From the IMG/VR virus record IMGVR_UViG_3300025668_000018, positions 1-43,010 of that record: a DNA stretch of 43,010 bases; one strand, written 5' to 3'. Position numbers and translations under genes: made by a program. Below are positions 5,480 to 37,100 of this stretch, in pieces. Every line of letters begins with the position of its first letter. Position 1 is the stretch's first letter. The DNA comes from a virus. Below the pieces are notes generated by a model, which searched no databases, was not told where the DNA came from, and was given only the letters and a program-made list of their open reading frames with translations.

Positions 5480-5899
5480 ATGGCATTAAAGGAACTAGGG
5501 GGAAAGGACTTTAAAAAGTCGCGATCTTTCTCTGACATTTTAATTTCTATGCAGAGGAATCCCTTTACGGATGATACCTCTGTTGTTAAAAATGATAATG
5601 CCATCAAGCAAGCAGTTAAGAATTTAATCCTTACGCAACCAGGTGAGAAACCTTTTCAACCATTAGTCGGATCTAAAGTCTATAATCTCCTCTTTGAACC
5701 TCTAGATGCTTTCACAGCAGATAGTATCAAGGATGAGATCATAAATACCATTAATCAGTATGAACCTAGGGTAGAACTTACAGACGTAGATGTTACTGCT
5801 ATTCCCGAGGGTAACAAACTAAATGTTGCCCTTGAGTATAGGATTGTAGGGTTACCGATTGTTGAAACAATTTCATTTGTTTTACAGAGACCTGAATAA
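5480..5899 (+). CDS. 25: Baseplate wedge subunit gp25
   Basis: This 139-residue protein is a clear gp25/GPW family member, about the length of T4 gp25 (132 residues). It includes the N-terminal basic stretch with RNPFTDD, the helix NDNAIKQAVKNLILTQPGEK that the family conserves, a GSKVYNLLFEPLD segment, and the EPR motif (QYEPRVELTDVDV), followed by a beta hairpin (LNVALEYRIVG). In contractile tails gp25 binds the gp6 core and is thought to nucleate sheath polymerisation. Its TAA stop overlaps the ATG of gp6 by one base (TAATG), which indicates coupled translation. Confidence 0.95.
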   Translation: MALKELGGKDFKKSRSFSDILISMQRNPFTDDTSVVKNDNAIKQAVKNLILTQPGEKPFQPLVGSKVYNLLFEPLDAFTADSIKDEIINTINQYEPRVELTDVDVTAIPEGNKLNVALEYRIVGLPIVETISFVLQRPE

Positions 5900-19900: not shown

Positions 19901-22900
19901 GGATCGTCTTTCTTCGGTCTACTATTCAACAGATTGACATCTGCTTCATATCCTAATGTTATTCTTGATAATATTTCTGAGTCTCAAGTAAATATTGTTG
20001 ATTTTACTGATAACACTACGAACTTTGATGCTAAATTCCCTGGAACTGAGTTTATTAGTAATTTAGTTATTCCTTATGACAATGCTACAGGCACATTCCA
20101 AGAAAACGAAATCATTCGTAACTACAAACTTGGATATGGTAATGTAACAGGGGTCTTCAATTCTTCCGAGAATATGATTACCAAAAAACTTGCTTTTGAT
20201 AGTAGAGTCGGGTCTGGATTCTTCCAACTTGGACAAGTCATTAGAACTCAAGATACTAAAGGTGAGGTTATTGGATACAATCAAGCACTTTCCACAATCT
20301 ATCTGGGTAAAGTAGGTAGAACTCTTTCTACTGGCGAAGATTACCATCAGGTTACTTTTGCGAACAATGCTCAATTAGATACAGATCAAAGTCATTATGG
20401 ATTAAGTTCTTTGCTACTTGATGGCACTGGAGATTATCTGTCTATCCCGACTTCTGCTGAATTTGGTTTTGGTGCAGGTGCATTCACAATCGAATGCTGG
20501 ATTCGTCCTTCTAGTGTTACAGGAACACAGCAAATCTTCGATTTTAGGACGACTGCTGTCGAAGTTTCTTCCGAACTACTACTTGTAGGCACAAATCTTA
20601 ATTATAGAGTTAATAATTCCACTACAATTACTGGAACAGCAACTCTTGCCGTAGATACTTGGTATCATGTTGCTATCTCAAGAAATGCTGCCACAACAAA
20701 GTTATTTGTTAATGGAACACAGGATGGTGGAGATTATTCTGATGGTAGTAACTATGGAAGCACTAAACCAATCATCATAGGTGCCTCCTATGCCTTTGGA
20801 GACGGTTTCGCTGGTCATATCGATGAGTTCAGAGTATCTAACACTTCGCGCTATCAGACGACATTTACTGCCCCTACAGGAATCTTCCAGGGTGATGCTA
20901 ATACTAAGTTACTGCTTCACTTCGAGGGTGCTGATACTCAAACATATGTTGAGGATTGGTCTGGTGGAGAGTCGTTTACAGACAACGAAGACTTCAACAA
21001 CGATGCCATTCTTAAGAACTGGAATGAAAATTCCACAAATCTTCCTGCTGGATTCGCAGGTAAGTCACAACGATATTATGATGCTGCTAACTTAATCGAA
21101 TCCAACAAAGACTTTGTTGCTAAAGAAGCAGTTTACTTACTGACTCAGCAGTATCCATCACTTGTAATTCCTGGTGGTAACGTAAATTGCGAAGATGATG
21201 TTCGCGATATCCTAACTGCTTTGATTGAGGATATGCGTAATGGATGTAATAGTCATATCTGGGATGCTTCGGCATTGTATGTTAATAGAACTGTTAATCC
21301 TATTACAATTAGTCATGTTGATACGGAAGTTGTAGAAACTGTCTGGGCTTATGATAAAGTCAAAGATATTCTTCAATATATCATCAATAATACTCTTTGG
21401 TCTGTTTCTGGCAGTCATGGCGTAAGACAAATCACTGATACCACAATTACTGATTCTTCTACAGGATCCTTTACCACAATTCAACCATCAGCAATTTCTT
21501 ATAATGCTGCTACTGGTGATATGGTCATGACATCGAACAGTCATGGATTAACGACAGCAAATACAATCGCTATTGCTGCAGAGTCACTGACATTCACATG
21601 CACGAGTGATGGTAATGAAAGAGAATTGATTCATCCTCGTAAGAGTGATACTAGAGCATATAATCAAGTTCTTGCAATCACTGCAGCAGATACTAATACA
21701 TTTACAGTAAATGTTGGTGCATCTCCAGCAGAGCAACAATATGTTCATACATTTGTAAGTGCAACTTCTAATGCTGTCACAGTCCTTGATTACACTACAG
21801 GTGATTGTGCCGATGTCTATTCCACGATTGGCAATCTCTTAGATATCCTTACGGATACACTTGAGCAAGCAAATCTGGGCAGTCCTGTAGACCACTTAGC
21901 AACTATCACTAAAGTAACTACTAATTATGAGTTCGTTGGTGCTACTGTTAATGCATATCTTGAAGTTCCGTTTAGCACCACATATCACAGTGCTGCTTCG
22001 GATATCTTATATACCAATAGAATTGACACTTCTGCTCGTGGAAGATTCCGTGATGCTTCAAATCTTATCAATGCAAACGCTTCGGTTATTGTTGATAAAG
22101 CAGCATTTGATATGCTTTCTAGATATCCAGATCTTGCTATTGACATGCCTAGAAACGCCGCTGGCGGTAGCACTGACGGAACTCTTCGTTGTAAGACTGA
22201 CTTAGGTTTAATCTTAGGAGCAATCGCGAAAGATATCTATGATGGAGGAAACTTCTTTACTGTCCAAGCTGCTAGGTTCTATATTGGTGAAAATGACGAA
22301 CTCAGACATATCCGTTTGCAAGTATGGCAGTCTGTATATGCTCATGATAGACTTGCATACTATGCTAAGCAAGCAGTTACGGGTGATCTGACATACGATA
22401 ACACCGACAATATTATCGTTGGTGACTGGGGTATTACTAATGACGCAGGAAACTGTGCAAATGTTCAATCTGCTATCGATACATTAGTTACTACCATCAA
22501 TGATATTATCGCTCCAACTAGCGAAGACTTCAATATTGCTGGCGATAGACTATACTTCAACCGCGAATATATTGCCGAAGAAATTACAGGTCTTACTGCA
22601 GCATATTTGACATATCAAGTTGATAACGCAAATCAAGTAGCGTATACATACGACACTGCTAAGTGTGAGCGTGATATTAAGTTACTGATTACTGCAATTA
22701 TCTCCGACCTACAGACAGGTGGTAATAATAGTACAGTTGATAACATGGGTCTGTACCTAACTGCTAACGGAGAACTGAATTATGTAGAAGAAGAACTTCT
22801 TCCTACAGTATTTGCATTCGAGCAGATTAGAACTCTTGGAGAAAAGGCAATCAGAAATCTCCTGTATGATGCAGGTGCAACTGTATCTGGTCAGCAATAT

Positions 22901-25900
22901 TCTGCTATTTACAGTGATAATACTGCATATAGAGATAGCGAAACTCCAACCGATATCGACCAAGCAGTTTGGAGACTTCGTGACCTAATTGATATTGTCA
23001 TTAATGGTCTCGCACCTGCAGGCAATGGAGTTAGAAATGCTGCCAAGAACTTCTACTTCAACCTCAAGTATTATAAGGATGAAATTGGAGCACAGATTGA
23101 TAGTCAGTTTGGTTCTGGTTCTTGGGTATATGATTCATTCCTTGAAGAAACTGCAAATAATATTGCAGCAGATAGTATCACAACAGATGTAAGTGCCTCA
23201 AATACCACTGTTGCTTATGAAATATCACTTTCTGGCATCATTGGAGACTTTGTAGCAGGAGAAACAGTAACATCCAGCAATGGTAGTACTGCGACTGTGC
23301 TTGAGTTTGATAAAGATAATCAGACAATTTATGTGGGACCCTTCTCATCCACTGCTTGGGCGGTTACTAATACTCTATCGGGTGGAAGTAGTTCAGCAAC
23401 AGCAACTATTGCTGCAGCATATGGATCTGTAGCATTTGATGGAACTGGTGACTATCTACAGACTGCTGCTGGTATTGCACTTGGAACTGGCAACTTTACC
23501 CTTGAGGGATGGATTCGTCGTACTGATACAAACAGCAACTTCTATCTATCTGGATCAACTGATAATAACTTCGGGTTCTTTGTAGGAACAGGTTCTTCTA
23601 ATGTCGGTTTCTACGGTGGAAGTAGTGGTAACTTTATTAATCTAACTAACACCACACTTACTGTTTCTGGGGGTAGATGGTATCACATTGCTGTTGTGAG
23701 AGAAGGAGTTGGTGCTAACCAAACTTCAATCTATATTGATGGTATTCTGCAAGGTAGTGGAACTGTTGCAACTAACTATGGTTCTACCACATTCGTTGTA
23801 GGTGCTAGTACATCTAGTACAGAATATGCAAATGGAAACATTTCTGATTGGAGATTGTCCAGCGTTGCTGTTTATCCAAAAGGAAGTACAGCAATTGGAG
23901 AAAAACTCTTTGCACTTCCTACACGACCATTTATTGCAGCAGACGTTACTGAAACCGAACTTATCTTGTGTCAAGGTAATACGATTCAAGATAATGGACC
24001 TAATAGTGTCTCAGTAACTGCTAACGGAAATGCTGCTGCTACTACAACTTCTCCCTTTGGATATTTCCCTGGTGTTTCCAACTCCTTTGATTGGTATATC
24101 TATCCTACCAATGTTGAGATTCTTTCTCAAGCAAGAGCAATTAGTTCTCCAGTCACAGGAGAAGTTAGTAGCGCAAATCTCTGGACTAATCCAGAAAATC
24201 TAAATTCGTCAAATTACACTTCTAACTTAGTTAATTATTTCTCTAATGTTACAAGTGCTCCTGATGGAACAGAAACTGCTGAAAAACTTTATGCTACAGG
24301 CACTGGAGTACATTCACTAACTAGAGATTTTAATCTAACTTCATATGAAACCTTTGACAATTCAACTGTAACATTTGATAGTGGTACTGAAACATTCGAT
24401 ACTGGATTTGGTGGTATTACTGAGCAGCAGACATTTACTCTGTCGGCATTCTTCAAGAAAGCAGAACTCGATAGTCTCAACTTCAAACTTTCTTTGGATA
24501 ATCAGTCGAAGAATATTAACTTCAATGTCAACCTTTCCACAGGTCAAGTTGATACAGGAACATTGTTTGTAAGTCCTGGTATTACTCTTAACGAGTATGG
24601 GGTAACACCAGTTGGTGGTGATTGGTTCCGTGTATACTCAACAATTACCTTCGGTTTTGGTATTGATAATCTTCAAAGTGACTTTGCTATCTACAATCGT
24701 TCATCTGTTGCTGCTTCTGGAAATCAAGGTTTCTATCTCTGGGGTATTAAACTCAACGCTGGTTTCCTTGATCCTTATACTGCTGGGTCTGGTAAGTTGT
24801 TCTATTCAAATACCGAATATAACATTAAGACATATGCGTTAGATCTTCTAAGAGAGTATATGGTTGCTTCAATTTCTAATGAACTTGTTGTTCCTTCCCC
24901 CATTGCTGCTGTAGGTTCTTTCTACCAGGATCCAACATCAGCAGCAGCTCTTGCTAATGGAAATTACAGCAATGAAAGCATCAGTAGATTGATTCGTTAT
25001 GGCACTAGCACAATTAAAAATCAGTTCATTAATGATGCATACTATACAAACCTCACTCAATATAATGCAGTAACTTTCGGTTCTAAAAACTACGGTGATA
25101 GAGATATTCCTGTAGGAATTACTGGAGGACTAAATTCTTCCGATTATTTCTATGGTCTGAGTTCCGATTCAAATGCCGAACTTGCAAATCTCACTATCAA
25201 TGAAGGTTTGATTGCTAAAGTTTACAGGAGATTCCGTATAGACGGCGATATTACTGATGGTCCATTCACCATGAATGAAGTTGTCGCTAAGCAGGGTGCT
25301 CCTAGTATTACTGGTGTAGTTTATGGATTCTATGAAGATGAGAACTTCAAGTATCTCGATGTCGAAGTTACTGCTGGTCCTTGGGCAGTTACAGACTTCA
25401 TTGTTGGAGCGGCAAACTCAACAACGGCACAAATCAGTGCAATCGAAGATCGTATTCACATTATCGATCTTAAAGGTGACTTTGTTCAGGATATTGAATT
25501 CCTTGGTTATACTTCTGGAGCAGTTGCTCAACCCACTTCATTCATCAAAGCAGAAGCATCCGTTACTTCTAATACTGGAGGTCTTCTGACAGTTGATACT
25601 GAGAGTTTGGTAGGCACTTTTGAGAAAAACTCGGTAGTCTATCCAGAATCGTCCAGACAGTATATTGATGTAAGTCAAATTTCTGGTCTTCAGGTATCGG
25701 TTGGTGATCGTATTGCATCTGATGGATATATCAGGTTGGGTGTCTCAGTCATCTCAACTTCTAATGTATTCATTGTTGGAAATAGGATTTATAAGGTTGT
25801 TAACAATCTTCAAGATAGCACCGTATATGGTGTTATCACCGAAGTAGATCTTGCTAACAATTACATCTACATCACAATGGTTCAAGGAGAATTCCAAAAT

Positions 25901-27067
25901 GGTGATTACATTGGAGATTATGGAGTCGATATTTTCCCTCAAGGATTCGCGACAATCAATACAAAGGTTGTTACTCCTGGAGCAGCCGCTGCTAGAGTTC
26001 AAGACATCAGAACAGCAGGATTGAGTAAGAGAATCTATCTTACAGATATTGCTGGAGCATTCTCTAGTAAAGATGCCATTATCGGAACTTCTGCATATAA
26101 GGCAGTTATCACCGATATTGTAGACCTTAAAGCTCGCGTGAAGAGATCCTCCAAAGGATTTGATGGTACACAAACTACCTTCTCTCTCACTATTGAAAAT
26201 GGAACTTCATATCTGCCCGACCCAGAGGGACATATGATGATTTTTGTCAACGGCATTCTTCAACCTCCTGGAGCAACTAACGCATATACAGCGTTCTCCG
26301 ACCAAATTCAATTCGCTGAGGCACCAGAACTTGGGTCCTCGTTTACTGGATTCTATATTGGTAAGTTGAGACAGTTGGATGATATCTCGTTTGAATTTGA
26401 TTCATTACGTCAGTCATTTAACCTCAAGCGTAACGAGGTATTCTACTCACTCACGCTGACAGAAGGTGTTCAATCTACTGTGATTAGACCTGAAAATAAT
26501 ATCATTGTTTCTCTCAATGGTGTTGTTCAGGAACCTGGAGTTGGTTTTGAGATTGTTGGTTCGCGAATCATCTTCTCTGAAATTCCTCGCGTAGATTCTA
26601 CATTCGTCGCGTTCTCTTATGTTGGTTCTGAAGCAGACGTTGATGCTGCTGAAGTAGTTCCACCAATCGAAACAGGAGATTTCATCGAAATTGAGGGTGA
26701 AACTGAGGATCGTGAGGTCGCGGTTATCGAATCGTCCAACTCACTCATCACCTTCGATTATCTTGGATCAGTCTTTGGTCAAGGTGCTATCGGACAATCT
26801 GCACTCACAAGTGGATTTATTAGTACTGTTCAGGTTACTTCTGGAGGTTCTGGTTATACAAGCAGACCTACAGTTAGAATCGATTCTATCTCTGGTTTCG
26901 ATGGTAACATCCGTGCATTGGTTGGTATTTCTAGTGTTGAATTGAATAGTTATGGTTCTGGATATCAGAATCCAGTTATCATTGTTGAGAGTGAAGTTCC
27001 TGATGATTGGACCGCACCAAATCTCGCAGATTATGGTGAGGAATTAATTGATCCAGAGATTGCATAA
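7937..27067 (+). CDS. Giant multidomain virion protein (6376 aa), baseplate/fibre-like
   Basis: A single unbroken 19.1-kb frame. The order by approximate residue is as follows. 1-60: conserved start (PLFNKFIEYYYQSQEKTG). 300-590: seven GGxGY repeats. 655-740: helical region (IKDFYSAKGTSFSIAYLFK). 1128-1352: six more GGxGY repeats. 1425-1550: YHYH-like domain (GWAFDGNPIYGPYGY, TPEYPNGRYCYF). 1610-1621: an EF-hand-like loop (DENRDGVISAEE). 1843-2211: seven propeller-like blades. 2215-2432, 4145-4340 and 5162-5378: three LamG-like domains. 3015-3250: more GGxGY repeats. 4380-5070: three helical repeats. 5412-5620: a carbohydrate-binding-like module. C-terminus: two LNGVxQ modules and two GGxGY repeats. 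Its position after gp6 is that of T4 gp7, but homology to gp7 is not shown. LamG-like and propeller folds suggest glycan binding on the host surface (inference). It shares the gp25-gp6 late transcript. Confidence 0.85.
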   Translation: MDINKVSHVSSYQTPQFIESEYPLFNKFIEYYYQSQEKTGLGQNIVNNFLQYLNIDKLDISILDGATRVVEPVGVSDTTITVETVDPFLEKDGSVLIGDEVIYYEETVSSPNIALTPGISYTQVQLKWVLLANNISLFDGTRTVFPLVSQDNPIGPSSPQHLIVKVYGRTLTPVVDYNISGTNIVYTTAPRVATASDDISTTSVTYLNGFSENTIVQVDDISSAFGDNKTSFELTVNNQKYEPIADEFLLAVYDNRLLVPKVDYFTDGSIFVFNVPPLNGRSLSLYSIEAPIPSFGSGAVGYARVNDFGNISSVIPSANGSGYRFDYPPKVSVNSSVGSGASVKTLVDGIKSVSLLSGGAGYSESNPPTVKVQFPTKEGYVEPTLKATVTNGAVSAIDIVSSGSGYTFTPRITFEQPGGAILATPTIVNGSVSGAITITSGGQGYTTPPLVYIDEPTGVDGIKASFTTTLTDGEITTVNILNAGQGYETVPRISVIDPVGAQVLETKVDGDGRVISVELLFGGNGYTDVPSVYIVDNRQNDVGTYIGGTGATAVAAIFNGQITDINITNFGTGYSADNPPQIVIQKPVDAKASATVGLQEITGFSVLKSGKEYTKAQFLGCARAASGITNYTQDGNAVFSNNTVAAAAPTDASVKCLDALFVKRLLDKYTEQFLPDVPTLDYSKIDVRTSIKTIKDFYSAKGTSFSIAYLFKLLYGETVTVSYPKDQIIKPSAATWSVDTVLRATLVSGLPENIQDGLLCQVADISDPNILAATALIENFISIQTAQDTIYELALSEETIQGTFIVPYKTKLAEPLNTTEGIITVDSTIGWPERNGEFVISTGVGSEVVQYKEKSLNQFIECTRSVNGVVEDWDSATQVSSNFNVFINKGTAQEVVLNIVGIVDAQQTTLTDTGSYYLPGDKLLISKLGGTGTGPELTTWLYNVKKLIEVGTITFGGINNQSATVTCNNPHGLLVGDQVTIYGANPIIYNGSFLVTSRDSTTVFQYQLPQPANVVPQGNILVSIDLNKGKSDSSAVNNAISPYTTNVQNTFFNTTNTYIASTGIPNYNIGPFPGSALLPGNQRKLNRFPINPVTISTKNLIVPGPIGTWVNGVSIWSYKSDVTKIFGAVTSVDITNAGSGYDAAFPPAITISGGEGTGAAASATVNGSISEVTVTAGGSGYTSSPLVSIVGGGGSGASATAIITKGVVSSILVNSGGTGYTSQPSITVVGGGGSGAEGTAAVRGPIQSVTITNGGSSYTSNPSIILSSGTGAVAQAIVNDGRIISIAIISAGSGYTTAPEVTIQGEGFGAVARATIDVDGENAGKVTGIEIINRGIGYSQGTTIINLNSVGQGATFAANVFQWTYNLQETTTVDAAKGSVFEGFNNQYGGEYAHLSNPQRLRYILGDNLFVNVSGQILEQDDQLAHSPIIGWAFDGNPIYGPYGYSDPTNQSSSIARLGTSYRLKTNLVYDVITNPNPVRTAGPLLTDEIAGKFVEDYEYSFSLGDLDQYNGRFCKTPEYPNGRYCYFVTIDATEAGNPVFPYILGPSFNSVVDVWNLSTSAVQQNIPIGVVRYRDPYENVDIDVERAPNASTNGLTLENGDLLTFDVEDENRDGVISAEETADPDQIFEESPLQLFDYFPKVKLDSKVDIEVETITKFEDASITGFVVENSGINYQVDDRLIFDNTDTGGDGASARISRIKGETVSGYTFENVSGENFGVLTTNVPHNLQLDDSVFVDYTPIMDNTNKTFVVRQYKGIEDIVITQSGSGYNEDIPPTLVIDGDGISGDLQAIVTSVGSIDTVNILNSGSGYTSNPRVIISHPQVFKKAEYIVSKIENNENVKVNDIFVNESKEIFICGKTLDSSGNVVAFVSKLSTTGVKEWEKTLELTSGTNYAEFQKLYVDGDDIWVVGVNRPNILVLDAYNPDIILVKYTQSSNGLSATLQFQKGYSGISGSTRADNVTCIKKYSDTRYVIGGYTNTNSGSPFDAFIALIDTAGSFAIKRKIASVDDSEKLTDIVVDDGNIYFTLETSNTSSDNNVNVAFGKAIVGTNAIEVEYINEYSNAGYSFLDSSLAIDEFKELYITSTLRAKSDNVTRDSVWVGKVNTAGSFVWNYRYLAPGRDVNAVGKCAVDIFGDLNIAFNRVDNTTGLKTVDTVKIGYDGVVKNHTTNEFNENRIEGITAHSIDVDNSGDVYVFGQTSWNRNEFLLEFTGGATTDTFGNYTPTFVGADATQSLHLDGGVAKIYGRDIATPANWENAYIEFPNNTLGNTLNENWTLEFMLYQDSASTDTHSQDQQTLVAIGDATDATGGLWLYYDRTAAGPSGYLELVVTNNTTSINSAGGAVQSTLTTMFADDTWQFIGLKKEGNVFTVYVNGISVITATVADTSFTSKKLYIGNIAGRNGTTGNWRKDEQGQYFVDNLKLRNRAINPTVPSDVSVLPTNGAFGLSYSWTDTAWFSTYNNVHDYIDYSGWGVKVDKDADSARIGDQGIQLVTQLGYVRTAVTPVTGSTLTIGSTGFALGSLGLQSLDFDDATTVMTQDTETLTYTKDIWSSRTATIPSPGSQKLIISAVVKDRYYFKVTNTVKIDNVQILTVNQAFRFTVGTKLVLNDDSGSFVNSGYITKVDTDNNKVYLAVNNNSWTDDLNTGQLSTTQFSEQSTYGIVGPIPLDINQIDSYTFAQVDNTTPGTFTIDLDKYNLDGTYNAAGGQNLDSFAKFKPYSDDDYAVRIDEISGSSTFIVGSVVTINGGDISYNAAYSTATITNLTGVLKITLVANLTKILRVTAVANSDEVYVITDTRHYLTPGSMLNVDGNPSETVNTVVYDEYDGSFPVDTVISPLEFTYKLPQAAVTSPASSSGNVSIYVKSPVLKMYYGHQYLFDLSHSSMLGGNLSFSKDPLYKLEYSFNSIERVGTPGVTGQGATTPTVKFKVDEGIVTNISYYFDPSRVGDNDSPIIQGSYLDVVTSPYKGTFQVSGVAGATITRGADQIKFPLINEPEGNADVSRASYSTSSRRAVGSIDSIRIVNPGGFYTRLPIVDSIQSTRQIERVSITEPGTEYAVGQYTGVAIAGDGEGGFVTITVADGTDSEGSPIPGQVQSVLVTSPGKGYTTATVDIDSVPGILGAGLTGSGAEVTVVIPPFGTAASIFTVGSSVGKIKKLKNNNFGYDYPHDYTLRPEITFPINAQLTSTSILDSVTITDPGSGYSQAPAVIITGGGGTGAIAQSTIKNGRLDRIEVKDPGLGYSSTPSVELKSSFNYVVNLDLGLLQFSFPHGIAQGSEITLNVVDTGDGADFPIAAGAVGRLNGLTTYYAISGAANSLEDDQLKFAITPANAALGDALSFTNAGTGRQQVLTTSFGGAATANVITSTFLEGEQVYQGSSFENATALGFVSTNNGWQVGPRIVKIVDYTGDFNIGESITGVISKSSGTISSLNIATGVLDVGSITETSGQFIDDVGKPSEIIQKIQDSYYYQDFSYAVKSAVSINEWKDILIKNVHPASFKVFGELNLNEYGFVPNKETFFQLTKSVELARQATVPNIQSFALVEPVYSAFDNTEVLFRQKRLTSSENILTSVVQRLDDISNLFDGERISFPLQIDGSNVVANANQLMIILNGVVQTPDTSFEVQNDSIVFSEPPQPPASVKYVNVTIQPIQVYKFTITNNSGIFPSTNNTVLGTQSGSRLTVTSVVGDDIFGFVAEGNVGIVTALNNATLTSGAGYTDGTYSDVATTSSGVGTGLTVNITVASGAVTQASINSVGVGYASSEVITITGGTTSATIAVSTVSGFNINELISVGATGFTATLTEITPIVNLNLFSFNEQIKNLTGKIAVVEEVNLETGDSVPLADLRYTIGAGTSTVEVIDSAALTDTAVPASVFSVDANYQLGAEIVTVSAITVGPNSTTLTVLRGQLGTTATSHQEDLPLYGTDISITNELALSKTVGTYQSKPGLFDIRLDDVIIGSQSGVVARITSTSAYQDPTTNEFIEQVNISDGSSFFGLLFNRLTSASYPNVILDNISESQVNIVDFTDNTTNFDAKFPGTEFISNLVIPYDNATGTFQENEIIRNYKLGYGNVTGVFNSSENMITKKLAFDSRVGSGFFQLGQVIRTQDTKGEVIGYNQALSTIYLGKVGRTLSTGEDYHQVTFANNAQLDTDQSHYGLSSLLLDGTGDYLSIPTSAEFGFGAGAFTIECWIRPSSVTGTQQIFDFRTTAVEVSSELLLVGTNLNYRVNNSTTITGTATLAVDTWYHVAISRNAATTKLFVNGTQDGGDYSDGSNYGSTKPIIIGASYAFGDGFAGHIDEFRVSNTSRYQTTFTAPTGIFQGDANTKLLLHFEGADTQTYVEDWSGGESFTDNEDFNNDAILKNWNENSTNLPAGFAGKSQRYYDAANLIESNKDFVAKEAVYLLTQQYPSLVIPGGNVNCEDDVRDILTALIEDMRNGCNSHIWDASALYVNRTVNPITISHVDTEVVETVWAYDKVKDILQYIINNTLWSVSGSHGVRQITDTTITDSSTGSFTTIQPSAISYNAATGDMVMTSNSHGLTTANTIAIAAESLTFTCTSDGNERELIHPRKSDTRAYNQVLAITAADTNTFTVNVGASPAEQQYVHTFVSATSNAVTVLDYTTGDCADVYSTIGNLLDILTDTLEQANLGSPVDHLATITKVTTNYEFVGATVNAYLEVPFSTTYHSAASDILYTNRIDTSARGRFRDASNLINANASVIVDKAAFDMLSRYPDLAIDMPRNAAGGSTDGTLRCKTDLGLILGAIAKDIYDGGNFFTVQAARFYIGENDELRHIRLQVWQSVYAHDRLAYYAKQAVTGDLTYDNTDNIIVGDWGITNDAGNCANVQSAIDTLVTTINDIIAPTSEDFNIAGDRLYFNREYIAEEITGLTAAYLTYQVDNANQVAYTYDTAKCERDIKLLITAIISDLQTGGNNSTVDNMGLYLTANGELNYVEEELLPTVFAFEQIRTLGEKAIRNLLYDAGATVSGQQYSAIYSDNTAYRDSETPTDIDQAVWRLRDLIDIVINGLAPAGNGVRNAAKNFYFNLKYYKDEIGAQIDSQFGSGSWVYDSFLEETANNIAADSITTDVSASNTTVAYEISLSGIIGDFVAGETVTSSNGSTATVLEFDKDNQTIYVGPFSSTAWAVTNTLSGGSSSATATIAAAYGSVAFDGTGDYLQTAAGIALGTGNFTLEGWIRRTDTNSNFYLSGSTDNNFGFFVGTGSSNVGFYGGSSGNFINLTNTTLTVSGGRWYHIAVVREGVGANQTSIYIDGILQGSGTVATNYGSTTFVVGASTSSTEYANGNISDWRLSSVAVYPKGSTAIGEKLFALPTRPFIAADVTETELILCQGNTIQDNGPNSVSVTANGNAAATTTSPFGYFPGVSNSFDWYIYPTNVEILSQARAISSPVTGEVSSANLWTNPENLNSSNYTSNLVNYFSNVTSAPDGTETAEKLYATGTGVHSLTRDFNLTSYETFDNSTVTFDSGTETFDTGFGGITEQQTFTLSAFFKKAELDSLNFKLSLDNQSKNINFNVNLSTGQVDTGTLFVSPGITLNEYGVTPVGGDWFRVYSTITFGFGIDNLQSDFAIYNRSSVAASGNQGFYLWGIKLNAGFLDPYTAGSGKLFYSNTEYNIKTYALDLLREYMVASISNELVVPSPIAAVGSFYQDPTSAAALANGNYSNESISRLIRYGTSTIKNQFINDAYYTNLTQYNAVTFGSKNYGDRDIPVGITGGLNSSDYFYGLSSDSNAELANLTINEGLIAKVYRRFRIDGDITDGPFTMNEVVAKQGAPSITGVVYGFYEDENFKYLDVEVTAGPWAVTDFIVGAANSTTAQISAIEDRIHIIDLKGDFVQDIEFLGYTSGAVAQPTSFIKAEASVTSNTGGLLTVDTESLVGTFEKNSVVYPESSRQYIDVSQISGLQVSVGDRIASDGYIRLGVSVISTSNVFIVGNRIYKVVNNLQDSTVYGVITEVDLANNYIYITMVQGEFQNGDYIGDYGVDIFPQGFATINTKVVTPGAAAARVQDIRTAGLSKRIYLTDIAGAFSSKDAIIGTSAYKAVITDIVDLKARVKRSSKGFDGTQTTFSLTIENGTSYLPDPEGHMMIFVNGILQPPGATNAYTAFSDQIQFAEAPELGSSFTGFYIGKLRQLDDISFEFDSLRQSFNLKRNEVFYSLTLTEGVQSTVIRPENNIIVSLNGVVQEPGVGFEIVGSRIIFSEIPRVDSTFVAFSYVGSEADVDAAEVVPPIETGDFIEIEGETEDREVAVIESSNSLITFDYLGSVFGQGAIGQSALTSGFISTVQVTSGGSGYTSRPTVRIDSISGFDGNIRALVGISSVELNSYGSGYQNPVIIVESEVPDDWTAPNLADYGEELIDPEIA
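8840..9705 (+). repeat. GGxGY protein-repeat block 1 in the giant gene
   Basis: Seven imperfect repeats of about 35-45 residues, each with a Gly-rich turn ending in GY (NGSGY, GGAGY, SGSGY, GGQGY, AGQGY, GGNGY, FGTGY), then a Pro, then short beta strands and a NGxI/V strand. The regular strand-turn spacing suggests a beta-solenoid or string of small beta units. The repeats are coding and diverged at the DNA level. Confidence 0.75.
11320..11990 (+). repeat. GGxGY protein-repeat block 2 in the giant gene
   Basis: Six repeats, the most regular of the gene. GGSGYTSSP and GGTGYTSQP lie 39 residues apart and the next GGSSYTS is 38 further on, with GGGGSGA turns midway between. The register shows a unit of about 38-39 residues. 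The same unit appears in the 853-, 510- (gp8) and 1405-residue proteins of this window. Confidence 0.78.
16980..17690 (+). repeat. GGxGY protein-repeat block 3 in the giant gene
   Basis: Five more diverged copies, recognisable by NPGGFY, EPGTEY, SPGKGY, DPGSGY and DPGLGY, again with a GGGGTGA turn between the last two. Here the two residues before the turn are usually a residue plus Pro, a sub-type distinct from the SGG/AGG copies of blocks 1 and 2. Confidence 0.68.
21073..23150 (+). repeat. Three tandem copies of a helical module in the giant gene
   Basis: Residues of about 4380-5070 contain three related units. Each has an 'LI-x-x-N-x-x-x-V/I' helix, then a Cys-x-x-Asp helix (NCEDDVRDIL, RCKTDLGLIL, KCERDIKLLI), an Asn/Gly-rich turn, an A/G-x-LY or RFY segment, then a V-x-A-x-(D/E) helix (VWAYDKVKD, VYAHDRLAY, VFAFEQIRT). 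The rest of the protein is mostly beta, so this is a helical island. It lies between the second and third LamG-like domains. Confidence 0.65.
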
Positions 27068-27089: not shown

Positions 27090-28310
27090 ATGGCTAAACA
27101 AGCACTAAACCTTGGAGCTTCTGCTAATGACAATACGGGGGATACCCTCCGTATTGGTGGTGATAAAATTAATGATAATTTTAACGAACTATATACCGCT
27201 TTAGGTAATGGAGTAAGTTTAACTGTTAATACATTGAACCCCGTTGCAGGACAGGTTCTTCGTTATAATGGATCTACTTTCCTGCCTTCAGATTATAGTA
27301 ATCTTACATCTGCTTTAGATGTAAATGGAAACTCAATTATTTCATCCAGCGATGGTAATATTCCTGTCGCTGCAAACGGTACTGGTGTTATTACATTAGC
27401 ATCCAACTCGATTACTTCGACATTTGGTGCTAATGTTGACATTCCTACAATCGTAAAGTATAAAAACGAATATGCAACTTTAGGAGATGCTCCTGCTGCA
27501 GCATCCTATCCTGGTTACTTTTTTACTGTAGACGGTACTGATGACCCGTATGTAAACATTAATATCACTGCTGGGGGTCTTGGTGATGTTAGAGCAAAAC
27601 TTCTCACTGAGTATTCAAGTATTGATGATTTGAGTAATGTTGATGTCACAACAGCAGCACCAACAGCAAATCAAGTTCTTAAGTGGGATGGTTCTAATTG
27701 GATTCCTGGAGATGACCAAGCAGGTGTAAGTGCTATTAATGTTTTCCAGACTGTCACTGCAGATTCGGGAACTACTACTGCAAACAGTCAAACAGACACT
27801 CTTACTATTGCTGGTGGTACTAATATTACTACAGCAGTTGTTGGTGATACTTTAACTGTAAACTTCAGTGGCACTCTTACTACTACTTTAGCAGCATTAA
27901 CTGATACTGATACTGCTGGTCTTACTCAGGGCGATATGCTCTATTGGAATGGTTCTAATTGGATACCAACTCGCAGTCCAATGCTTTGGTATGAAATTGG
28001 AGCACCTCCAGGAAATAATTCCAATTACTATACAATAGCAGGACCTGGATCATCTATCGCTACTCAAAATCCCACTATCTATGTTCATAGAGGATTCACA
28101 TATGCCTTCGATAATAGTGTCGAAGGTGGTGGTCATCCTTTTAGAATTCAATCTACTCAAGGACTGACGGGCACTCCGTATACTGATGGACAGAGTGGAA
28201 GTATAACCAATGTTCTTTATTGGACAATTCCAATGGATGCACCGAATACACTGTATTATCAGTGTACTCTCCATTCATTGATGCAAGGCACCTTTACCGT
28301 CGTAAACTGA
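27090..28310 (+). CDS. Fibre-like structural protein with C-terminal cupredoxin-like domain (406 aa)
   Basis: The N-terminus has the motif NLGASANDNTGDTLRIGGDK and then INDNFNELYTAL, common at the start of phage tail and fibre proteins. Three short units with the pattern 'L-[YW]-[ND]-G-S-x-[FW]-x-P' follow (LRYNGSTFLP, LKWDGSNWIP, LYWNGSNWIP). The last 90 residues look like a cupredoxin: strands YVHRGFTYAFDN and GGGHPFRIQST, then LYYQCTLHSLMQGTFTVVN. His349, Cys392, His395 and Met398 fit the four type-1 copper ligands, and the Cys-x2-His-x2-Met spacing is that of amicyanin. Whether copper is bound is not known; the domain may be used as a stable beta sandwich. The gene ends with TGA, three bases before the next ATG. 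Confidence 0.83.
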   Translation: MAKQALNLGASANDNTGDTLRIGGDKINDNFNELYTALGNGVSLTVNTLNPVAGQVLRYNGSTFLPSDYSNLTSALDVNGNSIISSSDGNIPVAANGTGVITLASNSITSTFGANVDIPTIVKYKNEYATLGDAPAAASYPGYFFTVDGTDDPYVNINITAGGLGDVRAKLLTEYSSIDDLSNVDVTTAAPTANQVLKWDGSNWIPGDDQAGVSAINVFQTVTADSGTTTANSQTDTLTIAGGTNITTAVVGDTLTVNFSGTLTTTLAALTDTDTAGLTQGDMLYWNGSNWIPTRSPMLWYEIGAPPGNNSNYYTIAGPGSSIATQNPTIYVHRGFTYAFDNSVEGGGHPFRIQSTQGLTGTPYTDGQSGSITNVLYWTIPMDAPNTLYYQCTLHSLMQGTFTVVN

Positions 28311-28313
28311 TAA

Positions 28314-31300
28314 ATGACAAGAACCGTACCTGGATCAGGAGCGCAAATTAATCCGATCTTCGATGAAGTTTTTGGTGTTCGCGCTGTAGAATTAATTAGT
28401 GGTGGAACTGGATACGATCCTGCCGACCCTCCAAGATTAACCATCGATGGTTGCGGCACTCCTGCTCAAGAAGCACTGCTATATCCAATCATTGATAAAG
28501 ATTCGGGTAGAATTGTTCACGTTCGTGTTCTTCAAAGGGGTAGCGGGTATGATCCTCTAAGACTTAAAATTGTTCCCACGTCTGAAACACCAAATGTTTT
28601 AGACTCTTTTGATGTTAATAGAATCTGGCAAAATCATCCAAATTCATTGACAAGAGGCACCTTCCAGACTTCTGGTACACCTCCTGTTAAGAATGATAGA
28701 CTTCGTATTGAGTCTGATAATAATCCTAAACCTACTTGGATATTAGAAGAGGCACAACCTGGAGGTTCTGGAAATATTGTAGACAGATCTTTTGACCAAG
28801 TTTTTATATATCGTGGTGGTAAAGATGTTCCTTATGAAGGAACTAGAAGTTTTCAAAATAATAAATCTTTAGGAATTCTGGCAAACGGTGGTTTATTACA
28901 TACTCCAGAATGGGGTACTTTTGGCAATGCACCAACAAACTTTTCTATTGATACTGTAAAATATGATTATGTTAAAAATACTGACGCTAATGATGTAATT
29001 CTTGACAATTCGATTCATTACTATCAGACTAGTAAATTAATTAATGAATTTGATAATCATAACGGCGTATTTCAGTGGGGGTCTTTAGAGCAGTTTGTTT
29101 GGAATATTAAGGTAGAGTTTAATAATGTCATGCTTTTCGTCGATAATGTAGACGAAACTCTAAATCCAATTGAAATTGGTAGGACGATAAATGAAGTAGG
29201 CGGTTCTTCTTCGGGAGAGATTGCAAAAATTGTCAGAAATGCTCAGAACCAGATTGTTAGAATTTATTTAAGAGATGTTATAGGGACTTTTGAGACAACT
29301 GATTTTATTTTAGGATCTACGGGATTCACATTTAGAATTAATGGCGACCCGATTCTATTCCCCAATGGTCTCTTCTATATTGATTTTGGTGTTGATGCTC
29401 ATGAGTTTGGTTCATTTATTCCTGGAGTGTATTATCTCGCCCCAGAAAATATTAAAGTTCAAAGAAACTATCTGATTATTTGGAATCAAACTGATGCGAC
29501 AAATCAACCGTCAGCACAGCACGCTCAAGGTCATCCAATGCAATTCAGTACGACCCAAGATGGTCTTCTGAATAACGGAACTTTATATTACAATAGTACA
29601 GGCGCATCTTCTGCACCTGCAGTAGATTATGAAGATGAGTTTAACCCACTCTTCATTATGAATGCAGATGAAAATAATCGCATTTATTATTACTGCAAAG
29701 TTCATCGTTATATGTCAGGATATGAAGGTGATGAAGGATACATGTATCTAGATCCTGCTATTGAAGAGGAAGAGGAACATGCAAATAACTACTATTATAA
29801 GAATTATTATCAAACCGATTCAAACGATCCAAACACTATTGATAGATCTCGTCATGTAGATGGTCACTCAAAAGTCCTTGGTATGTCTTTTGATGGATAT
29901 CCTATTTACGGACCATTTGGATATACTACTGGCAGGACTGTCGGCAGAATGACGAGTTCGTTTAGATTTAAAACTACTGCTGAACTTTCTGGTACTAGAG
30001 AGGAGGTTGTAACTGCGAGCACTGTAACATATGCTGTTACTATTTCAAATTCTAAATTTTATTTTAACGGACAAGAACAAGAATTACTGAATCTGAAAAG
30101 AGGGAAAACTTATATCTTCAATCAAGATGATGCTAGCAATACTGCTAATGGCAACTTCTTGATGTTCTCCTTGACTGAAGATGGTTGGCACGATACAGGA
30201 AGTTCACTTGATATTGGAACAACTTCATATCTATATGATGCTTCAGGTTTAGTTGAATATTATTTGGATGGAGTTCTAACACCATATGCCACATATTTGG
30301 GCGGTTTTGCTAGTGCGACGACAAGAGAAGTTCGTATTACTATTCCTGTAAATTCACCTAGGGTTGTTTATACTTTCTCATATTCAAATTCTGGTTATGG
30401 ATCTCGTCTTGTTAATGAAGGATATATTCTTGGTGATTTGACTCAGGACTATATCTACGATTCTTCTGTAGGCAATCTTGACCAATATAATGGTAAGTAC
30501 GTTGTTACCCCAGAATATCCGAATGGTACTTATGCATATTTCATGACAGAGGATAGTAGTGGGAATCCCGTTTATCCATATGCGATTGGTCCCCAGTACT
30601 ATGGAACACCTATATTTGAAGGTGATGCTATTCCCGAACAAGTATCAGTTTTCCCAACTGAAGCAGAAGGTGATATTGTCCTTAATACTGATGGGACGGT
30701 ATCTTATATTAAGATGACTAAAAACGGTGATAACTTCTTCGGTACAGCAAAAGCAGTTATTCTTGGGGGCGAAGGAACTGGTGCTGCAGCAACTCCTGTC
30801 ACTCAAACTATTACTGGTCTATCGTTGTTAAACGAAGGTAGAAGTTATGCAACACCACCAAACCTTATCTTTGAAGGAGGTGGTGGACAAGATGCTGAAG
30901 GTGCAGCATCAATTGATACTCTCGGTAAAGTTACGTCAATTAATGTTGTTGATGGTGGTGAATTCTATCAGACAGAACCATATATTCTTTTGACTGGTGG
31001 TGGTGGACTTGGCGCAAAGGCAGAAGCAGTTATTAGTCAAGGTGCTATTACTGGTATCAATATTACTGATCCTGGAAAAGGATATACCTCTCCACCAAAT
31101 ATTGTCTTCACTAGACTTGTAAATCTTAAGCGTAAAACCAGATCTCGTCAGGCATTTAACTCCTCTGATATTTACTTGACAGGTCTGACTAAAGCACTCA
31201 GTTCTAGTGATACTACAGTTTATGTTTCTTCTACAGATGCATATCCAGGATCTGGTTCTCTCATAATCGATAAAGAAACTATCTCATATACTTCTAAAAG

Positions 31301-32531
31301 TAGAGGTAGATTTACTGGAATTACTAGAGGTGTTAATTTTAAATATGACCAAAGAGTTATATTAGACGACGGGCAGAATGATGCTAATGGAGATTCCAAC
31401 TATAAGTTTAATGTTGGTGATAGAGTAATTCGTAGGGTTGAGAGTGCTAATAATAAAATTGCTAAAGTATATGATTGGGATCCTAGCACTAGAGAACTTT
31501 TAGTTACGTTTGAAGTAGACGAACTTGCATTCATTGATGCTGGAATCCCTTCAACTACTGATGCTATCGTTCAGTTTGATGCTGGTGTTGCAAATAGTAG
31601 TGGAACAGGTGTTCTTCCACATACAATTATTAATGCGGTTGGTAGTAGCATATCTACTTTAACCGTACCAATTGGAGCACTTGTAGATAAAGCGTTTGAG
31701 GATAATGATGAAAATGAAGATCCTTTGAATCCAGGAACATTCTTAGGAGATGGTATTGCAGATTTAATTAATACTGCTACAGATTATGCAAGTCAAATCA
31801 GTCTAGATGGTGGCATTTTCGATTCATTGTATGGTATTGAAGAGACTCAAGGTGGTCAAAATACTACATTACTTCAAGTTGGAGATAATATCAAAGACGC
31901 AGATATACCATTCAAATATGCCACAATTACTTCTGCAGGTGGATTGAGTGATGGTGTTGAACACCCTGTTCTTTTGACACTGACGTTGGATGCTTCTAAT
32001 GGTAACGGTCAAAACTACAGTACAAATGAAGTTGTAACTGGTGCTATCTCAGGTATTCAAGGAACGGTAGTATCTTGGGATATTACTTCATCAAAATTAG
32101 TATTGAAGGATATTGTTCCTTTCAATACAAATAATGTTAATATTGGTGTAAATGGATATCTGTACGAGTTCTCAAGTAACAGTACAGTTGTTGATATTGT
32201 TGTCGTGAATAACGGAACAAACTATACCGCAGTTCCAAATATTGTTATTGAAAGCACGGGTGATATTCAAGCAACTGGTACTGCTGTTATGTCAACATCT
32301 GGTGACCGAGTAGATTCTATAACCATTTCAAATGGAGGTTATGGAATCCCTCAAACAGTTGACAATAGTTATAATCTACACCCAACAATCACATTTACAA
32401 ATACTGGTGGTGATATCACTGGTTCTGGTGCAGCAGCTCAGGCAGTTTTGGGTGGAGAAAATGTGACTGGTAATGGCGGAGCGAGTTATCGTATCAAATC
32501 TATTGAATACTCTACATTAGTTCGCTCGTAA
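28314..32531 (+). CDS. Large structural protein with cupredoxin-like and YHYH-like domains (1405 aa)
   Basis: The order is: two GGxGY-type repeats (GGTGYDP, RGSGYDP) near residues 28-80; a GExITG-like unit around 280-345; a cupredoxin-like domain around 372-480 with His407, Cys461, His464 and Met467 as candidate copper ligands (GHPMQF and YYYCKVHRYMSG); and a YHYH-like domain starting at FDGYPIYGPFGY (about 525). That domain is interrupted by about 130 residues of a second cupredoxin-like unit without metal ligands, then resumes at LDQYNGKYVVTPEYPNG (about 723). GGxGY repeats follow (about 840-930), then a module with ITRGVNFKYDQ (about 955-1020), another GExITG unit near 1240, and final GGxGY-like repeats. 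It has no T4 counterpart known to me. It is probably a fibre or baseplate appendage cotranscribed with the 406-residue gene. Confidence 0.83.
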   Translation: MTRTVPGSGAQINPIFDEVFGVRAVELISGGTGYDPADPPRLTIDGCGTPAQEALLYPIIDKDSGRIVHVRVLQRGSGYDPLRLKIVPTSETPNVLDSFDVNRIWQNHPNSLTRGTFQTSGTPPVKNDRLRIESDNNPKPTWILEEAQPGGSGNIVDRSFDQVFIYRGGKDVPYEGTRSFQNNKSLGILANGGLLHTPEWGTFGNAPTNFSIDTVKYDYVKNTDANDVILDNSIHYYQTSKLINEFDNHNGVFQWGSLEQFVWNIKVEFNNVMLFVDNVDETLNPIEIGRTINEVGGSSSGEIAKIVRNAQNQIVRIYLRDVIGTFETTDFILGSTGFTFRINGDPILFPNGLFYIDFGVDAHEFGSFIPGVYYLAPENIKVQRNYLIIWNQTDATNQPSAQHAQGHPMQFSTTQDGLLNNGTLYYNSTGASSAPAVDYEDEFNPLFIMNADENNRIYYYCKVHRYMSGYEGDEGYMYLDPAIEEEEEHANNYYYKNYYQTDSNDPNTIDRSRHVDGHSKVLGMSFDGYPIYGPFGYTTGRTVGRMTSSFRFKTTAELSGTREEVVTASTVTYAVTISNSKFYFNGQEQELLNLKRGKTYIFNQDDASNTANGNFLMFSLTEDGWHDTGSSLDIGTTSYLYDASGLVEYYLDGVLTPYATYLGGFASATTREVRITIPVNSPRVVYTFSYSNSGYGSRLVNEGYILGDLTQDYIYDSSVGNLDQYNGKYVVTPEYPNGTYAYFMTEDSSGNPVYPYAIGPQYYGTPIFEGDAIPEQVSVFPTEAEGDIVLNTDGTVSYIKMTKNGDNFFGTAKAVILGGEGTGAAATPVTQTITGLSLLNEGRSYATPPNLIFEGGGGQDAEGAASIDTLGKVTSINVVDGGEFYQTEPYILLTGGGGLGAKAEAVISQGAITGINITDPGKGYTSPPNIVFTRLVNLKRKTRSRQAFNSSDIYLTGLTKALSSSDTTVYVSSTDAYPGSGSLIIDKETISYTSKSRGRFTGITRGVNFKYDQRVILDDGQNDANGDSNYKFNVGDRVIRRVESANNKIAKVYDWDPSTRELLVTFEVDELAFIDAGIPSTTDAIVQFDAGVANSSGTGVLPHTIINAVGSSISTLTVPIGALVDKAFEDNDENEDPLNPGTFLGDGIADLINTATDYASQISLDGGIFDSLYGIEETQGGQNTTLLQVGDNIKDADIPFKYATITSAGGLSDGVEHPVLLTLTLDASNGNGQNYSTNEVVTGAISGIQGTVVSWDITSSKLVLKDIVPFNTNNVNIGVNGYLYEFSSNSTVVDIVVVNNGTNYTAVPNIVIESTGDIQATGTAVMSTSGDRVDSITISNGGYGIPQTVDNSYNLHPTITFTNTGGDITGSGAAAQAVLGGENVTGNGGASYRIKSIEYSTLVRS

Positions 32532-32570: not shown

Positions 32571-34103
32571 ATGGCAGCTCTATTAACTGATCAATTTAGG
32601 ATTTTCTCAGCGAGAAAGTTCATTAAGGCATTGGAAGGACCCGATGCCACTCAGAGTGATGATGTAGCAGGTACAACGAGAGATCGTTTATACCTGTTCA
32701 TTGGTCGTCCTCAAACTTGGGATAATGAAAATTCTCCTCCTCAAGCAGTAGATTCCTTTGAGGAATTTTCTGGTTCTTATGATGACATGATCTCTTTGAA
32801 GCGCGTCCTCGCTTCAGATACTGTTCAGGTTGTTCGTCGTATTGACTGGGTTTCTCCAGAACAAACTACAGGTGGACTTGGTTTCACCTATGACATGTAT
32901 CGTCATGATTATTCTCCTAGCAAGACTGCTTCTTCTGGTGCTACCAAACTTTATGACTCAGATTTTTATGTTGTAAACTCACAATATCAAGTTTACAAGG
33001 TAATCTATAACGGCACATCTCCTTCGGATCCTAACGGCAAACCCTCTACAGTTGAACCTACAGGTTCTTCTACTAGTATTATCACTACAGGTGATGGATA
33101 CCGTTGGAAGTACATGTATACAATTCCCGTTGCCTCAGTCCTTAAGTTTTTCTCCAATGATTACATGCCCGTCTTTACAAATGACGCGGTAAGAACCAAT
33201 GCGGTTGCTGGAGAAATTGATACCGTAGTCATTAGTTCTGCAGGTTCTGGATATAACAACGGCACTTATGACAACGTTGCCATTAACGGCGACGGTACTG
33301 GCGGTAGAGTTTCTATTGTTATTGATGGTGGTAGAATTATTTCTGCTACTGTAACTTCTGGTGGTACTGGATATACATTCGGTAAAATCAGTATTGATTC
33401 TATTACTGGTATTGGTACTGGTGCTAGTGGTATTGTTGATGTTATTATGCCTCCTCCTGGTGGGCATGGTTCTGATTCTGTTGTAGAACTTGGTGCATTC
33501 CGAGTCATGGTTAATGCTAAACTTTCTTATGATGAAGGTGCTGGAGATTTTCCAATCGATAACGACTACCGTCGTATTGGTCTTGTTACCAATCCTCTGA
33601 AGTTTGGTACGGAAGAACTCATTTCAGACTTGACAGTTTCTGCTGCTAAAGCAGTCATCTTCTCTCCTACATTCCAAGGCAACTATGTTCCTGATGAAAT
33701 TGTTACTCAAACAAGAGTTGTTGGTGGTGTAAGTATCACTGGTCGTGGCAGAGTGATTTCATGGAATCCTACTACTAAAGTATTGAAGTACTATCAGAAC
33801 TCAATTGATGGTATTTTCCCTGAAGTTACAGGCACGCAAAACGAACTTGACGGTTCTAATGTTATTAGTGGGGCAACTTCTGGTGCCGCTGGGCAACCAG
33901 ATGTAAACTTCCCTGCTGTTCCTAACTCATCTTCTAGAACAATTAATAATACAGAATATGATTTAGGTATGAAGTTTAACAATGGTTATGGAAAACCCGA
34001 AATCAAATCAAACAGCGGTAATGTTGTTTACATAGATAATAGACGGGCAATCAGTCGTGCAAACGACCAGGTAGAAGACATCAAAATCGTAATCGAATTC
34101 TAA
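32571..34103 (+). CDS. 8: Baseplate wedge subunit gp8, expanded with repeat modules
   Basis: The N-terminal part is gp8-like: FRIFSARKFIKALEG, an RLYLFIGRPQTWDNENSPP segment, MISLKRVLASDTVQVVRRIDW, and YDSDFYVVNSQYQVYKVIYN followed by GDGYRWKYMYTIP, a series conserved in cyanophage gp8. At 510 residues it is clearly longer than T4 gp8 (334). Much of the extra length is repeat modules: two GGxGY units around residues 214-300 (SAGSGYNNG, SGGTGYTFG) and a GExITG-type unit around 367-410 (YVPDEIVTQ ... GRVISWNPTTKVLKY). After the first insert the gp8-like sequence resumes (FPIDNDYRRIGLVTNPLKFG). In T4, gp8 dimers link the wedge components. Its TAA overlaps the next ATG by one base. Confidence 0.9.
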   Translation: MAALLTDQFRIFSARKFIKALEGPDATQSDDVAGTTRDRLYLFIGRPQTWDNENSPPQAVDSFEEFSGSYDDMISLKRVLASDTVQVVRRIDWVSPEQTTGGLGFTYDMYRHDYSPSKTASSGATKLYDSDFYVVNSQYQVYKVIYNGTSPSDPNGKPSTVEPTGSSTSIITTGDGYRWKYMYTIPVASVLKFFSNDYMPVFTNDAVRTNAVAGEIDTVVISSAGSGYNNGTYDNVAINGDGTGGRVSIVIDGGRIISATVTSGGTGYTFGKISIDSITGIGTGASGIVDVIMPPPGGHGSDSVVELGAFRVMVNAKLSYDEGAGDFPIDNDYRRIGLVTNPLKFGTEELISDLTVSAAKAVIFSPTFQGNYVPDEIVTQTRVVGGVSITGRGRVISWNPTTKVLKYYQNSIDGIFPEVTGTQNELDGSNVISGATSGAAGQPDVNFPAVPNSSSRTINNTEYDLGMKFNNGYGKPEIKSNSGNVVYIDNRRAISRANDQVEDIKIVIEF

Positions 34104-37100
34104 TGGCACAAAATACCAATCTAAACGTTACACCCTATTACGACGATTTCGATAAAGATAAGAATTTTTATCGAGTTCTATTTCGTCCTGGATTTCCAAT
34201 TCAGGCAAGAGAACTTACCACAATGCAGAGCATTCTGCAGAACCAGGTTGAGAATGTAGGTTCTCACCTGTTCAAGGATGGCGCAATGGTCATTCCAGGG
34301 CAAGTAGGTTATGACCTGACCGTTGATGCTATCATGCTTCAAGAGTCTTTCCTTGGTGCTGATGTCGAGTCTTATAGAACACAATTGAATGGACTGATTA
34401 TTGAAGGTCTAACAACTGGTGTTAAGGCGAAAGTTCTCTATAGTATTTCTTCTACTGAATCCGATAAGGGATATATTACATTATATTTAAAGTATATTGA
34501 ATCTGGCGGTACTAATAATTCGACTGAACTGTTTGCAAGTAATGAACAGTTAGTTACAAATACAGAAATTACTTTTGGTACAACTCTAATTGAGGTAGGT
34601 TCTCCTTTTGCTCAGTTATTGCCTACAGATGCACTACAGATGGGATCTGTCTCGTATGTACAGCAAGGTGTGTACTTCATCCGAGGATTCTTTGTTGATG
34701 TAGATTATCAATATATCCTTCTTGATCAGTATGGAAGCAACCCCTCCTATCGTATCGGTCTCAACATTCAAGAATCGATTGTTACCCCAGAAGACGACCT
34801 TAGTCTTAACGATAACGCTGCTGGAACATCTAACTATGCTGCTCCTGGTTCTCATAGATTTAGAATCAAGACAACATTAATTAAGAAACTTTTAACTGAT
34901 GATGCTGATAAGAACTTCATTGAACTTCTTCGTATCAACAACTCTAAGGTAGAGAAGTTAGTTGATAGAACTGCACTAAATGAACTGGAGAAAGGTCTTG
35001 CATTAAGGACTTATGAGGAATCTGGTAACTATGTTGTAAAAGATTTTGAAATCTCTGTCAGAGAAAGTCTTGACGATGGATTCAATAATGGTGTATATGC
35101 TGCAGGAGCAACAACTTCTAATGGAACTACTACCTCCGATGCCAAATATGCTGTAGAATTTGGTGCTGGTGTTGCATATATTAGAGGTTATAGAGTTAAG
35201 CGTCTTTCTCCATCATATGTCGATTTAGACAAACCTCGTGAAACTTTAGACGCACAAAACGTCATTATCCCATTTGAAATGGGGAACTTTAGTAATGTTA
35301 CTAATATTTTTGGATTCCCAAATACATCAGGTTCCACTATTACTAATGCGTATCATACTTTAGAATTAAGAGATACTGCTAGTGCTTCTGCTGGTTCTGC
35401 TGCAGGGGATTTGATTGGATATGCTAGAGTTACATCAATCGAGCATCTTAACGATCCTGATAATACCTTTGGTAATACAGATGACCAGTATAAACTGAAC
35501 GTCATGGATGTTCAGATGTTTACTGTATTAGAACTTGCTAGTGCTAAAAGTATTCCTCAAGGTTCTTTGGTAGTTGGTGGAACTTCTGGTGCCAGAGCAT
35601 ACATTGTATCTGCCACAACTTCTAGTGATAGAGTTGATGTGTATCAAGTAGAAGGAACATTCCTGCAGAATGAAATGCTCCTTATTGATGGCGCATTCCT
35701 TGATACTATCAACCATATCCATAGTTATCAGTATTCAGATACACGTCAATTTGTTGCAAGAGATGAGTCAACTCTTGCTATTGAGTTTACTGCCGATTTA
35801 GTTCTTGAAGATGTTCAATTGGTGGAAGGTAGTACTTTCACTTATGATGCAACTGGTGGTGCTGAAACTATCACGGGTCTTCAATCAAACTTTGCTTTAG
35901 ATCTTCGTCCTGGGGATAAAATCTTCTTCAATAATACTCAATTTGTAACTGTTGATATTATTACTCCTGGAGACCTTGCTGCTGGAGGTAGTGCATCTAT
36001 CTTTAACTACGCAAATCAGGTTGTTAATGTAACTCCTCCTAGTAGTAACTTCCCTAGTGCAGGAACTTATAATACCTTACTTAGGTATAGAACTAAATTA
36101 TTTGATGTTGCTAATGCGGATCTTCTTAGCGATATGCCTAAGAAGTATATTAAGAGTATTTCTGACGAATCTATGATTGTTAGAAGAACTTTTGATGCTC
36201 AAACAGTTTCTTCAGATTCAATTTCAATCACATTACCAGAGAATGAGCAGTTTGAAAGTATTACTGATGAAGCATATACTGTAACTGTATTGGCAGGTAC
36301 AAATAGTACTCATCCTGTAGGGGATCAAATTACCCTGGATACTGTTACTACTAGTGCTTTGGGTTATATCTCGTTCACGTCAGCAGACAGAACTACCCTT
36401 CAGATTGAAAATCTTACAAATATCACATCAGTTAAAGTAACTGCTACAGTTTCTAAGAACATAACTGTCAAAAAAACTAAATCTGGCAATGAGATGTTTG
36501 TTTTAAAAGTAACAAATACTACTTCTAATTTAGATAAGCAAAATTATAATCTAACCTATTCCAACCTTTATGGTACTAGAATTGAAGATAAAGAGTTATC
36601 ACTTGGTCTGACAGATAGTTATAGATTACATGCAGTATATGAGTCTAATGATGATAACGATCCTATTATTCCATCAGTAGTTCTGGTTGAACCTGTATTC
36701 TTTGCTAATGGTACTATTGTAACTGGCAGAACATCTAAATCAAGAGCAAAGGTTGTTGATTTTGCATCAGGTAGTTTAAAACTTAGTTTAGTTTATATCA
36801 CTGGTTCGTTCCTATCTGGTGAAACCTTGGATGGTTTTGATAGTACTGGAGCATCGATTTCTGCAATTATTAACGATAGCGAAGGTTCTATTGTAGCTGG
36901 TTCTAAGGTCGTAACTGATAATTACTTCCTGGAAGTTGCACAGACTGGTTTCATCTATAACATCTCAAGAGTTGTTCGCAAAAAAGGCACTATTGCCCCT
37001 ATCAGAAAACTGAAACTCGTTCTCGACTACTATACACACTCTTCAACTGGTGATTATTTTGGTGGTCAGTCATATTTGAATACTGCTTATACGGACATTC

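Follow-up and report, generated by a model that had tools for sequence, protein, structure and literature searches.

The last 110 residues of a gp9-type baseplate wedge / tail-fibre connector of a marine cyanophage are predicted to form a cupredoxin domain related to blue copper proteins, with residues equivalent to all four type-1 copper ligands (His349, Cys392, His395 and Met398) in place. The site most likely holds one metal ion per chain in the finished virion, with copper as the best, although unproven, candidate. The stretch of DNA analysed (the window) is a 43,010-base virus record with the gene order of a T4-like baseplate cluster: gp25-like 5480-5899, gp6-like 5899-7929, a giant 6376-aa open reading frame at 7937-27067, gp9-like 27090-28310, gp10-like 28314-32531, gp8-like 32571-34103 and a DUF4815 protein at 34103-41311. 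The T4 names of the first two are inferred from 'baseplate wedge subunit' PHROGs and gene order. The 6376-aa frame, annotated in relatives as structural protein or baseplate wedge initiator, is rich in repeated GSGYT-type segments and contains a YGPYGY (YHYH-like) segment. The features that bear on the cupredoxin domain are as follows.

27090..28310 (+), gp9-like baseplate wedge / tail-fibre connector, 406 aa
27978..28307 (+), predicted C-terminal cupredoxin domain, aa 297-406
28134..28136 (+), His349, first ligand residue (model residue 56, two residues before strand 58-61), followed by Pro350-Phe351
28263..28265 (+), Cys392, thiolate ligand residue (model residue 99, end of strand 94-99)
28272..28274 (+), His395, second His ligand residue, in the loop between the last two strands
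28281..28283 (+), Met398, axial ligand residue with amicyanin spacing
28314..32531 (+), gp10-like baseplate wedge protein, 1405 aa, with a YHYH domain
29412..29756 (+), second cupredoxin-like domain in gp10 (about aa 367-481), with His407, Cys461, His464 and Met467
30015..30431 (+), third, decayed copy in gp10 (about aa 568-706), without Cys-His-Met ligands

A sequence-only reading had proposed a cupredoxin-like domain with a complete amicyanin-type copper site at 28050-28310, in a phage fibre-like protein of a virus that infects photosynthetic cells. The four residues and the loop C-T-L-H-S-L-M are confirmed, but the start at 28050 cuts the domain, which begins near residue 297 (27978), and 'fibre-like' should read gp9-type baseplate wedge / tail-fibre connector (PHROG 677, E 4e-197; Pfam T4_gp9_10_N, E 9e-10). 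With phmmer, the protein matches T4 gp10 (E 8e-6) and T4 gp9 (E 0.0018; PDB 1qex, 1s2e) over roughly its first 60 residues. Beyond about residue 61 there is no sequence match, and T4 gp9 is absent from the 50 listed Foldseek hits of the C-terminal domain; a T4-like gp9 C-terminus is therefore not supported, as judged without direct structural comparison. The protein is 95% identical to gp9 of cyanophage S-RIM12 and of phage Syn33, which infects Synechococcus WH7803, and the host proposed in the earlier reading is thus sound. The motif is not a chance one: none of 2000 shuffles of the five big structural proteins (11,099 aa) contained H-x30-70-CxxHxxM, whereas the window has CxxHxxM at two places, both in this domain family. 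Cys392 is the only cysteine among the 406 residues, which excludes a disulfide within a chain.

To assess the relationship with known cupredoxins, we compared the domain with sequences and structures by several routes. A single-sequence search of PDB gave only weak, unrelated hits, and Pfam identified no copper family in this one sequence, although 12 of 48 relatives match Pfam Copper-bind weakly. By contrast, a profile of 30 relatives hit amicyanin first (E 2.3e-4), followed by copper nitrite reductases, plastocyanins, pseudoazurin, auracyanin and azurin. A broad profile, from the alignment of relatives denoted A2, hits PDB less cleanly than alignment A1, its first row being a weak match to an unrelated protein. 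Interestingly, 30 of the 48 members of A2 weakly match Pfam PF25489 (At5g54830-like domain; best E 2e-6), suggesting that this domain may be cupredoxin-related too. Profile-profile alignment (hhalign) with cyanobacterial plastocyanins gave E 6.5e-8, and with their amicyanin-type subset E 6.1e-8; the scores of 46-47 compare with at most 16.3 in 40 column-shuffled controls for each. In the plastocyanin alignment, His349, Cys392, His395 and Met398 sit on the plastocyanin ligands. AlphaFold2 modelling on 48 sequences yielded ten strands with pLDDT 92.1 and pTM 0.85, with His349 just before a strand and Cys-His-Met in the loop between the last two strands (94-99 and 106-112), which is the type-1 arrangement as inferred from topology and alignment only. 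The top Foldseek PDB hits of this model are nearly all cupredoxins, led by rusticyanin (E 6.6e-6) and nitrite reductase (6e-5), then pseudoazurin and amicyanin, but TM-scores to solved cupredoxins are modest (about 0.5-0.55, rmsd 5-6 Angstrom).

Comparison with individual cupredoxins reveals both shared and divergent details. Amicyanin from Paracoccus (PDB 1aac, 1sf3) has a CTxHxxM loop with identical Cys-x2-His-x2-Met spacing, but is a free periplasmic electron carrier for methylamine dehydrogenase with His-Asn at the first ligand; here, the domain is fused to a virion connector and reads His-Pro-Phe. Pro occupies the position after the first His in 98% of relatives with an intact site, and Ala in the rest. 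Rusticyanin (PDB 1rcy; TMq 0.53) also lacks the usual Asn, with Ser at this position. Replacement of Asn by Pro removes one usual hydrogen-bond donor to the Cys sulphur; however, the type-1 sites of laccases, which are among the Foldseek hits, appear to have the same His-Pro-Phe (HPFHLHGH), and the substitution does not exclude copper. Compared with the laccase / multicopper oxidase sites, the phage protein has no HxH motifs for type-2/3 copper, different Cys-His spacing and one domain only.

Conservation indicates that the site is under selection. Among 206 distinct relatives with all four columns filled, 174 are His-Cys-His-Met, 2 are His-Cys-His-Gln, and 30 are Phe-Ala/Ser-Thr/Val/Ile-Met. 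No sequence has lost just one or two of the His-Cys-His trio, as expected of a metal site. Gln in place of the axial Met corresponds to the change found in stellacyanins. The 30 site-less sequences belong to S-B05-like tail fibres, apparently one derived lineage that lost His, Cys and His together but kept the fold signature and the Met—a natural metal-free control. In a tree made without the ligand columns, the one site-less row that passed the redundancy and gap filters lies inside site-bearing lineages, consistent with a single derived loss. These are counts of sequences, not independent events, and some of the peptide words used to fetch loci contain a ligand residue, so that the proportions are not population frequencies. 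Nevertheless, a tblastn survey without such bias agrees: of the divergent isolates examined, all but S-B05 keep the site. It remains conceivable that the fold serves only as a metal-free beta-sandwich bead whose ligand residues are inherited or needed for folding, as the site-less lineage and the decayed third copy in gp10 show that the fold can persist without metal. We consider this doubtful, because His, Cys and His are 100% conserved in 174 distinct sequences, some only about 35% identical to the window, while several neighbouring loop positions vary freely.

The sequence-only reading missed both a second copy of the domain in the next gene and how widespread the family is. The adjacent gp10-like protein (PHROG 708, E 0; Pfam YHYH, E 7.5e-16) carries a second domain, found with the iterated family profile (E 1.6e-21 in the relative at locus L005), in which His-Cys-His-Met is kept in all 38 distinct sequences with the four columns filled; the domain is present in 216 phage records. 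Its own AlphaFold2 model is poor (pLDDT 53) and its PDB profile search hit only antibodies and no cupredoxin, so its assignment rests on homology to the gp9 domain and its ligand motif. The third copy, detected by family profile hits in relatives, has lost its ligands in most relatives but retains Cys-x2-His-x2-Met in S-RIM14 and ACG-2014d. Some relatives carry a further inserted copy of the Cys-x2-His-x2-Gln type (aa 448-561 of the gp10-like frame at locus L070; also loci L045 and L049).

The family is widespread in aquatic phage tail proteins and, among isolates, nearly confined to cyanophages. The gp9-domain query matches 335 phage records, nearly all cyanophages, and a more divergent member matches 357, of which 347 are named Synechococcus phage, Prochlorococcus phage or cyanophage. 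In the gp9 relatives examined, the domain lies at the C-terminus of gp9; other carriers include proximal long tail fibres, other tail fibres and a podovirus protein beside the tail genes. Structure comparison also finds similar domains annotated as 'beta-sandwich protein' in Pithovirus and Marseillevirus (BFVD A0A481Z7Q7, A0A481Z6J5, A0A481YWX9). Hits in genome collections are few and mostly in metagenome bins (Rhodopirellula, Planctomycetota, Rickettsiales), probably misbinned phage contigs, and no cellular donor was identified among them.

We favour, with moderate confidence, a structural or attachment role for the metal site. The gp9 family links baseplate to tail fibres in T4, and the cupredoxin domain is the distal tip of the present protein. 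A bound ion, most likely copper, would pin the strand carrying His349 to the Cys-His-Met loop, making a rigid, protease- and seawater-resistant bead for subunit contact at the fibre joint or for attachment to the cell. Since the site-less lineage shows that the fold can persist without metal, the metal probably adds stability or regulation, not the fold itself. Metal occupancy, the identity of the metal and this role are inferred. Virion proteins presumably fold and assemble in the host cytosol before lysis, where free copper is probably vanishingly low, and thus either zinc occupies the site or copper enters at or after lysis. In the former case, the site would be a structural one for zinc, Cu(I) or Fe(II) and never a blue copper centre. 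Type-1 sites can likely bind Zn(II), and all-or-none conservation fits any structural metal, but an axial Met or Gln plus the amicyanin-like CTxHxxM loop is typical of copper, and zinc sites rarely keep a strictly conserved Met. We regard this alternative as possible but less likely.

A redox-active module that exchanges electrons with the host surface or periplasm, or senses redox state, for example to trigger the baseplate, appears unlikely. The ligand set is complete and most isolates with the domain infect the photosynthetic Synechococcus or Prochlorococcus; however, the domain is fused to a structural protein, no redox partner was identified, and relatives occur in many different tail proteins, with one lineage lacking the site. 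More remote still is the possibility that bound copper is displayed as bait for a host metal-uptake receptor, a copper version of the iron Trojan Horse idea for phage fibres (PMC11705849). The domain does lie at the fibre joint and in fibres, and several copies per virion are likely by analogy with T4, yet there is no receptor evidence and buried type-1 copper is poorly accessible. Speculatively, and with low probability, virions of abundant marine cyanophages could be copper-loaded particles with type-1 centres in two neighbouring baseplate proteins (perhaps 18 copies each, by analogy with T4), in which the metal acts as a switch that is loaded only after lysis, or changes redox state at the cell surface, and so matures or triggers the attachment apparatus.

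Iron sites in phage fibres are known or proposed, but the HxH sites of T4 gp37 and Alteromonas phage R22Y (PMC11705849) hold iron by His-x-His between intertwined chains, not by Cys-His2-Met inside a beta-sandwich. Cyanophages also carry free plastocyanin genes (PMC3037559, PMC2984593), which is a different matter, and virion proteomics exists for S-SM1, S-PM2 and Syn9 (PMC3037559). We found no report of a cupredoxin in a virion protein in literature searches that reached few subscription papers. Cupredoxins are known as free or membrane-bound electron carriers and as oxidase domains. A selected type-1 ligand set in a phage baseplate connector, repeated in the next protein and kept in hundreds of T4-like cyanophage records, would be a new use of the fold and a metal site in virions of some of the ocean's most abundant viruses.
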